Positions 9,501 to 12,500 of a stretch of DNA of 64,000 nt are shown here, one piece after another. Positions within the stretch are counted from its first letter, which is position 1. Each line of letters begins with the position of its first letter. The position numbers were made by a program, and so were the translations under genes. The DNA lies in NCBI GenBank assembly GCA_035048485.1, contig CM068587.1, positions 34,333,001 through 34,397,000 on the forward strand, read 5' to 3'. Origin of the DNA: Pteria penguin. Taxonomy: Eukaryota > Mollusca > Bivalvia > Pterioida > Pteriidae. The notes beneath the pieces are model-generated. The model saw only the letters and a list, made by a program, of their open reading frames with translations, made no database searches and had not been told where the DNA came from.

Positions 9501-12500
9501 ATTAAACAGATGTTTTCAATCTGTAATAATCGGTTACGATTTTAGCTTGTGACCGAGAGGTTCCGGGTTCACATGTAGATGGCCTGTTTATTAATGAGAC
9601 AGTTAAAACCGAGGTCCCGTGCCTCGGTAATCGTGCCACTAAGAAGATCCCCCATTGCCTCAGCTGAGTCCATTGCATAGGTCTGAATTTCTTAGACTGA
9701 GTAATTAAGCTCTGGTCGCTCCAGTGTTCTCTATGCCGCATTACTTTGGTAAGGCGACGTAGCCGAACCGGCAGCAACTAGAGACTGGATTAATCGGCCT
9801 ATGAATTTCTGTGCAATGCACCAAGAAGGAGTCCCTGTCAAATAAATGCAATACTTTTGGCATGGTGTAAAACAAAACTCATACAAACATGAACTGTCAA
9901 GCATTCTCTTTTAAAATTATACTGTAAACGTCATAGACTAAAAGCAAACCTTTCCCTGAGGGGCCTTTGTAACCGAGTGGACTGAGGTGCTGAACTCACT
10001 ATATACTCTCACTTACGTCATGCTTGTGTCCGAATCTCGTTTCGGGCAAATGCCCAGGCCCGCCAATGTATCAACCACATGACGATATTTTCCCTGAGTA
10101 TCCCGATTTTCTGTTTAGTATTACAAGACTATAAGGAAGAAGATAAGACTAGAAGCTGTTCTGATTGGAACAACTCTAAATACATGTACCACCAATACTT
10201 TTTACAGAGGCTGTTGATGGAGAATGGTCGCAGTGGATGGCTTGGTCTCCCTGCTCTGTATCCTGTAACGGTGGATATCGTACGCGCATGCGCACATGCA
10301 ATAATCCAGAACCTTTGTATGGCGGAAGCCAATGTGAAAATTCTCCTCAAGAGACGTTTATATGTAATGATGGACCATGTGATGGTAAGTGTATATGTAA
10401 TGATGGACCGTGTGACGGTAAGTATATATGTAATGATGGACCGTGTGACGGTAAGTGTATATGTAATGATGGACCGTGTGACGGTAAGTATATATGTAAT
10501 AAAGGATCATGTGATGGTAAGTATAAATGTAATGATGGACCATGTGATGGTAAGTGTATATGTAATGATGGACTGTGTGACGGTAAGTATATATGTAATG
10601 ACGGACCGTGTGACGGTAAGTGTATATGTAATGATGGACCGTGTGACGGTAAGTATATATGTAATGATGGACCGTGTGACGGTAAGTATATATGTAATGA
10701 AGGATCATGTGATGGTAAGTATAAATGTAATTATGGACCGTGTGACGGTAGGTGTATATGTAATGATGGACCGTGTGACGGTAAGTATATATGTAATGAT
10801 GGACCGTGTGACGGTAAGTATATATGTAATGATGGACCGTGTGACGGTAAGTGTATATGTAATGATGGACCGTGTGACGGTAAGTATATATGTAATGATG
10901 GACCGTGTGACGGTAAGTATATATGTAATGAAGGATCATGTGATGGTAAGTATAAATGTAATGATGGATCGTGTGACGGTAGGTGTATATGTAATGATGG
11001 ACCGTGTGACGGTAAGTGTATATGTAATGATGGACCGTGTGACGGTAAGTATATATGTAATGATGGACCGTGTGACAGTAAGTATATATGTAATGATGGA
11101 CCGTGTGATGGTAAGTGTATATGTAATGATGGACCGTGTGACGGTAAGTATATATGTAATGACGGATCATGTGATGGTAAGTATATATGTAATGAAGGAT
11201 CATGTGATGGTAAGTATATATGTAATGATGGACCATGTGATGGTAAGTATATATGCAAATATAGACCGTGTGACGGTAAGTATATATGTAATGAAGGATC
11301 ATGTGATGGTAAGTATAAATGTAATGATGGACCATGTGACGGTAAGTGTATATGTAATGATGGACCATGTGATGGTAAGTATAAATGTAATGATGGACCA
11401 TGTGACGGTAAGTGTATATGTAATGATGGACCATGTGATGGTAAGTATATATGTAATGATGCACCATGTGATGGTAAGTATATATGTAATGATGGACCAT
11501 GTGATGGTAAGTGTATATGTAATGAGGACCGTGTGATGGTAAGTATATATGTAATGATGGACCGTGTGATGGTAAGTATATATGTAATGAAGGACTATGT
11601 GATGGTAAGTATATATGTAATGATGGACCATGTGATGGTAAGTGTATATGTAATGAGGACCGTGTGATGGTAAGTATATATGTAATGATAGACCGTGTGA
11701 CGGTAAGTAAATATGTAATGACAGACCAGGTGATGGTAAATATATATGTAATGACGGACCATGTGATGGTAAGTATACGTGTAATGACGAACCATGTGAT
11801 GGTAAGTGTATATATAATGATGGACCATGTGATGGTAAGTATATGTGTAATGATAAGTAGTGTATGCTTAATTTCAATTGCCATTGTCATCTAAAGCCTC
11901 AAAAAATAAATAAATAAATAAATAAATAAATAAATAAATAAATAAATAAATAAATAAATAAAGAAGAAAATGAAAATTTTGATATTTTTATTTCCCCTTG
12001 ATAAATACCAAATGGTCGAAACTTTGTGGACATTGAGTGTATCTTGTTCTTAATTATTTTTAGTTTAATTGGATTATTTATCCCTTCAGTTGTAAAATAC
12101 CAATCAGAATGGTCGACTTGGGGAGATTGTTCAACGTCGTGCGGAATTGGTCAGGAAGTCAGATCACGTGTGTGCTCGACAGCCGATGATATCGGATGTA
12201 ATAACCTAGGCATCGAGACCAACACCAGGGAGTGTTTTAAAGCGGTGTGTCCTCACCCGGGTAAGATTTCAGACAGGGGACATTATTTAATCATTGATTT
12301 AAGCTTAACATAGTGCAGAAGATGTAGTAGATATCTATAAGTTATGTTACGTCTAGATTGGCGTATTCATCTTAAAATCACATTTAAAATACGATTTATT
12401 CCTGAATTAAAGTTGCCGAAATTAGTCTACATGCTACTGTCTCAGATTCCGAGTCTAGTCGAATTAAAAAAAAACAAACAAAAACAACAACAGATATACG

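Follow-up and report, generated by a model that had tools for sequence, protein, structure and literature searches.

A minisatellite of tandem 5' splice sites at the end of a TSP1 exon in Pteria penguin: probably a tolerated duplication of an exon-intron junction

Why does one coding exon of the bivalve Pteria penguin run into an array of 45 tandem 5' splice sites (donors), and does the gene use them to vary the length of its protein or simply tolerate them as repeated DNA? The array lies in a stretch of 64,000 nucleotides (GenBank assembly GCA_035048485.1, contig CM068587.1, positions 34,333,001 to 34,397,000 of the forward strand), here called the window, and coordinates below are window positions unless a genome position is given. 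On the + strand lies a gene of animal type whose exons include one for a von Willebrand factor A (VWA) domain and four for TSP1 repeats; the borders of all five are in phase 1. Its predicted exons, with the evidence for each, are as follows:

8876..9433, + strand, von Willebrand factor A domain exon (Pfam VWA, 1.5e-9; phase-1 borders)
10208..10384, + strand, TSP1 repeat 1 exon, to donor 1 (phmmer matches to human thrombospondin-1 and properdin; phase 1)
12090..12260, + strand, TSP1 repeat 2 exon (Pfam TSP_1, 2e-8; borders)
12774..12947, + strand, TSP1 repeat 3 exon (Pfam TSP_1, 1.1e-5; borders)
13394..13567, + strand, TSP1 repeat 4 exon (Pfam TSP_1, 1.8e-14; borders)
14122..14274, + strand, next predicted exon (open frame, splice borders)
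16335..16726, + strand, further predicted exon (open frame, splice borders; no match in Pfam)

Several other features of the window were recorded. Two stretches of the intron before the first TSP1 exon (9550-9620 and 9960-10075) resemble, by eye, pieces of a tRNA-derived SINE, and a second minisatellite, with a 31-bp unit, GTGAGT-like motifs and one strong donor-like site, lies upstream of the VWA exon (5362-5780). An open frame on the - strand (4172-4750) resembles a mariner-type transposase by eye, and exons of a homologue of the proteasome subunit PSMC6 occupy 55666-62368 on the + strand. Rfam and ARAGORN agree on a tRNA-Thr and a tRNA-Arg (41320-41392 and 41544-41616), ARAGORN alone predicts two more tRNAs (1478-1550 and 55179-55251), and Rfam at its gathering scores found nothing beyond the first two.

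The preliminary description of this locus held that a 33-bp unit, made of the last part of the first TSP1 exon and the opening bases of its intron, had been copied about 45 times, each copy with the donor GGTAAGT or a close variant, and both statements are borne out. Tandem Repeats Finder (TRF) places the array at 10359-11854, with a period of 33 bp, 45.4 copies, 90% matches and 0% indels, and the first copy, counted from the TRF start, consists of 26 exonic and 7 intronic nucleotides. All 45 units keep the donor GT, the first at 10385 and the last at 11835; 41 of them read GGTAAGT, and the remainder are two GTAGGT, one GTAAAT and one with A at position -1. A first-order Markov simulation of the composition of the array gave 0.3 GGTAAGT on average, and a 26-base consensus allowing up to three mismatches matched 45 times in the window, always inside the array, where none was expected. 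Chance is thus excluded as the source of these sites; the + strand of the remaining window holds three GGTAAGT. The features of the array and of the sequence just beyond it are:

10359..11854, + strand, 33-bp minisatellite, 45.4 copies (TRF and unit table)
10385..11512, + strand, donors 1-35, phase 1, in frame with the acceptor before 12090 (phase of all; 7 spliced in silico)
11507..11538, + strand, first 32-bp unit (1-bp deletion), which closes the in-frame series
11539..11840, + strand, donors 36-45, leading to a premature stop (7 of 10 spliced in silico; 42-44 lie beyond the same TGA)
11638..11669, + strand, second 32-bp unit, identical to the first, in a repeated two-unit block
11665..11667, + strand, TGA that ends the exon frame on read-through of the array
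11904..11962, + strand, (AAAT)n run in which AATAAA occurs 14 times with overlap, beginning 70 nt past the last donor

Among the 45 units, of which the first is mostly exonic, 43 are 33 bp long and two are 32 bp. There are 26 distinct unit sequences, their order along the array is non-periodic, and duplication of several units at a time is visible as recurring blocks (for example BCH, QR and OT, each present twice). The two 32-bp units are best read as a single deletion that was copied within a two-unit block. Tandem arrays are error-prone in assembly, and the copy number here could in principle have been inflated or collapsed; an artefact of this kind is nevertheless extremely unlikely in our view, as the diversity and irregular order of the units speak against it, and so do the many similar arrays found elsewhere in the genome (below).

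The unit seems to be unique in its own genome at the sensitivity of a single search, which passes over simple repeats and very common words: the query 10208-10400 gave 43 matches in the 838-Mb genome (49 contigs), all at the array locus. In that one search no copies were found elsewhere in the genome, as would be looked for in a dispersed satellite or a transposon-borne repeat, and the exact unit pattern had no match in viral contigs.

It had also been proposed that the first 35 donors share phase 1 and can be joined in frame to the acceptor before the second TSP1 exon. The shared phase was confirmed for all 35, and the seven whose splicing to the phase-1 acceptor at 12090 was simulated all leave the frame open (14 of the 45 donors were spliced in detail). 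The frame shifts after donor 35 because of the two identical 32-bp units. Donors 36-39, once joined to 12090, meet a stop 4 nt past the junction, and donors 40-45 have the in-frame TGA at 11665 already upstream. An open frame extends over 10207-11664. These properties are what first suggested a dial of protein length, in which many of donors 1-35 would be used, so that 0 to 34 extra Cys-rich units of 11 residues would separate TSP1 repeats 1 and 2, their number differing with allele and tissue. The phase, the open frame and the fact that 34 of the 35 donors are nearly equal in predicted strength speak for this idea. However, a second reading frame is likewise open across units 1-35, so openness by itself is weak evidence of coding, and the long frame 10207-11664 has no match in Pfam. 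A single-sequence AlphaFold2 model of TSP1 with the repeats had a mean pLDDT of 37.5 and was useless.

If the extra units served as protein, selection might have marked the differences between them. Coding VNTRs such as those of mucins have a tandem unit in frame with the flanking exons of an extracellular protein, and the present array shares the frame and the extracellular setting; its units differ in carrying donors and in showing no constraint at the level of the protein unit. The 16 distinct changes in units 2-35 comprise 12 nonsynonymous and 4 silent ones, a silent fraction of 25% against a neutral expectation of 18-24%, and hence the excess of silent changes that protein constraint would produce was not found among these few events. 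Across all 33-bp units, with the two 32-bp units left out, 17 distinct changes alter the protein, 5 are silent and 1 creates a stop. Constraint on the unit at the protein level was accordingly rejected as an explanation: the changes look neutral, in numbers too small to exclude weak constraint. Avoidance of change at the donor gave no signal either, with 3 of 23 distinct variants falling in the 7 of 33 positions of the donor heptamer (P = 0.45), and these two results together indicate clear selection on neither protein nor donor. One observation remains in favour of the length dial, in that units 2-35 keep every Cys codon and units 36-45 show two single-copy losses (G13A and T27G), although the numbers are too small to carry weight.

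Which donor, then, would be chosen? Several lines point to the first. The phmmer match of TSP1 repeat 1 to human thrombospondin-1 and properdin stops at the last Cys. Donor 1 stands one residue and one base beyond that Cys, and an exon ended there is 177 nt long, beside 171-174 nt in the sister TSP1 exons. From 413 candidate TSP1 loci in this genome, 150 were scored, and the 29 highest of the 149 other listed matches were surveyed; 22 of these 29 have a phase-1 donor near the end. In 19 of those 22 its position relative to the last Cys is exactly that of donor 1, a count that covers only 0-4 residues past the last Cys and includes some near-identical copies. Because the homology reaches the last Cys and these relatives share the donor position, donor 1 is most likely ancestral. 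None of the 29 loci has a donor array, their next ~1.5 kb holding at most two GGTRAGT against 41 here, which counts against the length dial. At another TSP1 exon (L029 1700-2234) the intron contains a 31-bp array of 17 copies that starts ~25 nt past the donor. Within its own genome the gene has no close paralogue that could show an empty site, since the best other VWA match is only 24% identical (E 7.6e-7).

Sequence strength does not single out donor 1. Predicted pairing with U1 is -10.9 to -11.2 kcal/mol in 43 of the 45 donors, stronger than at the other predicted donors, of which the gene has six (-5.8 to -10.3 kcal/mol, also in silico), and with such near-equal values donor 1 would have no advantage of sequence, so that position would have to decide. 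Where U1 sits on several strong donors at the same time, splicing can go to the intron-proximal one, and a preference of this kind would favour the late, frame-breaking donors. U1 sites are also known to suppress cleavage downstream of them (telescripting), which raises the possibility of an alternative last exon, made by reading through to the TGA at 11665 and cleaving at the AATAAA run, and normally held back by the 45 U1 sites upstream. The 14 AATAAA of that run, which start at 11905-11957, and the strong U1 pairing would suit such an arrangement. However, other (AAAT)n tracts occur elsewhere in the window and AATAAA is common on the + strand outside the (AAAT)n stretch (about 2.5 per kb), and we consider this alternative quite unlikely.

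Each donor is also covered by a potential hairpin, ACCGT-GTG-ACGGT or ACCAT-GTG-ATGGT, that might mask it and so tune the access of U1. All five pairs can form in 41 of the 45 units and 221 of 225 pairs are formed overall, a value that none of 10,000 reshufflings of the arms reached, and one pair varies between G-C, A-U and G-U. Against this, the hairpin was defined after it had been seen, the reshuffling takes no account of the covariation being that of two linked haplotypes, two units carry an A-C mismatch, and the sites fold weakly when taken singly (z -0.2 to -2.0 at three intact array sites). By a loose, post hoc definition, small hairpins occur at 4 of the 7 predicted donors of the gene, where shuffles gave 0.53 (P 0.0008); those listed lie at:

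window 9419-9442, small donor hairpin
window 10369-10392, small donor hairpin
window 12933-12956, small donor hairpin

Independent donors give no such signal, hairpins being present at 11 of 106 decoys, 1 of 6 PSMC6 donors (a set chosen by eye) and 3 of 22 other TSP1 donors, the last being near-identical copies. The hairpin was therefore rejected as a conserved control element, and its masking of the donors is highly improbable.

The most telling comparison comes from the rest of the genome. Three GGTAAGT spaced 20-50 bp apart match at 2185 + 2589 places (4,774), as against 1111 + 1219 (2,330) for the reversed pattern, which was the one control used, and such matches give weight to long arrays. 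The 100 matches listed first, all from the first 8.7 Mb of contig C1, were sorted by reading into 15 groups, 14 of them regular arrays and one irregular (233k), with the array at 910k alone accounting for 39 of the 100 places. Scaled by matches, this would make ~700 such arrays in the genome, a very rough figure. The 5' flanks of all 15 groups were inspected, the stretch at 1456k stopping short of the array start, and three groups have coding homology that extends as far as the first donor. They follow a tyrosine phosphatase exon (Pfam 4.6e-11), an ENPP exon (G000:C1:8337400-8338200; Pfam 2.6e-10, PDB 9.1e-11) and a polycystin-2-like exon (G000:C1:4898400-4899200; PDB 1.2e-10, with no match in Pfam). 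The phosphatase exon leads into this array, which starts where the coding homology stops:

G000:C1:910063-911771, phosphatase-exon array, 37-bp unit, ~46 units by span

As the three peptides were cut at the donor before the searches, the homology shows that coding reaches the donor, and the end of the exon rests on the donor and the array that follows it.

A codon-usage score supports two further exons, at 4549k (0.6% of control windows score as high) and at 6854k (3.3%, with no match in Pfam). A calpain reading of the 4549k exon was rejected, as its Pfam E value of 0.24 is below the cutoff and the PDB gave no match. The score is a blunt one, as two of the homology-proven exons reach 0.6% and 2.8% but the phosphatase exon no better than 7.1%. 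At 2086k, 4833k and 780k the exon ends were placed by eye, the scores are not significant (12%, 16% and 32%), and neither Pfam for all three nor the PDB for 4833k gave a match. No convincing exon was found at the 5' flank of 233k, 926k, 4632k, 5012k, 8077k and 8657k, the last scoring 5.1%.

The part of the unit that derives from the exon varies across arrays from about 1-7 nt to more than 20 nt, as judged by a rough script. Sampling of 42 sequences (197,794 bases) gave 19 minisatellites of 18-60 bp with at least three copies, which together cover 2.9% of the bases; the sample is non-random, and the TSP1 array makes up about a quarter of what is covered. Donor arrays that start at the ends of coding exons are a recurring class in this minisatellite-rich genome.

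This class bears directly on the length dial. Every period is a multiple of three in three of the 14 regular arrays (39, 36, 30/18), seven others do not fit the frame (46, 37, 44, 44, 40, 40, 47) and four are mixed; with seven of 14 outside the frame, a frame-fitting period is clearly not required of such arrays. For the six better-supported ones (the TSP1 array, three with homology and two with a coding score), three fit the frame (the TSP1 array, 6854k and the polycystin-2-like array, with periods of 33, 36 and 30/18), two do not (37 and 44) and one is mixed (39/40), a split that leaves chance and a mild preference for the frame indistinguishable. With periods of 37 bp (phosphatase) and 44 bp (4549k), two of every three later donors would break the frame, and if these genes work, donor 1 would have to be the usual choice there. 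Thus the in-phase donors and the open frame of the preliminary description stand, while their use as a protein length dial is weakened by the near-neutral changes between units and by the periods of the class, and we hold it to be rather unlikely. A broader version supposes that hundreds of genes carry donor arrays derived from their own exon ends, which would provide fast-mutating, heritable redundancy of splice sites together with U1 loading, those in frame, such as the TSP1 array, acting as length dials; this is to our minds equally doubtful, or slightly more so.

An array of this architecture is known in humans. The 31-bp VNTR of CBS, c.1444_1467+7(16_21), is described as having 31-bp units with single-base differences (PMC2630376). 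Its name implies a unit made of the last 24 nt of the exon and the first 7 nt of the intron, present in 16-21 copies with a donor in each. The TSP1 array likewise combines exon end and intron start in its unit (it begins 26 nt before donor 1) and has a donor in every copy (GT in 45 of 45, GGTAAGT in 41 of 45). Alternative splicing at several copies of the CBS repeat has reportedly been seen. The CBS repeat is a known counterpart with the same architecture, and differs in its 31-bp unit and 16-21 copies where the TSP1 array has a 33-bp unit, is in frame, has 45 copies and is accompanied by similar arrays in its genome. No other VNTR across an exon-intron junction was noticed in the literature searched, a result that does not show absence from print. 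The 38-bp VNTR of TERT intron 6 is an intronic minisatellite whose copy number alters splicing (PMC3948165), but it is situated >1 kb away from the exon junctions and its proposed mechanism is RNA-RNA pairing, whereas the TSP1 array carries donors. The length of the MIR137HG VNTR correlates with splicing at alternative 5' splice sites (PMC6692358), but the donors described there are in the pre-miR-137 sequence, outside the repeat units, and in the TSP1 array they are inside them.

We therefore favour, as likely, the reading that the array arose by tandem duplication of an exon-intron junction, belongs to a recurring class, and is tolerated since donor 1 is normally used. A tandem duplication may first have taken in ~26 nt from the end of the TSP1 repeat 1 exon together with ~7 nt from the start of the intron that follows. 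Unequal exchange or slippage would then have multiplied this unit, and each new copy would have regenerated a 5' splice site. The spliceosome would most likely pick donor 1 by exon definition, yielding the 177-nt exon; if splicing leaked to donors 2-35, the isoforms would stay in frame and gain n x 11 residues, and use of donors 36-45 would lead to premature stops. The other donor arrays of the genome may have arisen in the same way. A repeat-rich genome will catch some exon ends, and arrays that copy the donor can survive because the splice site is kept, which makes passive duplication the most economical reading. That 41 of the 45 donors are perfect counts against it, and could reflect use. 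Overall, the genome probably tolerates these arrays as repeated DNA, and a working control of length is the less likely reading.

Whichever donors are chosen, a pre-mRNA with 35 in-phase and nearly equal donors is a natural experiment on the choice of a 5' splice site. If donor arrays at exon ends are as common in this genome as the small sample suggests, a single genome would offer many replicates that differ in unit length, copy number and frame, and such replicates would allow direct tests of exon definition, of U1 occupancy and of the spread of junction duplications.
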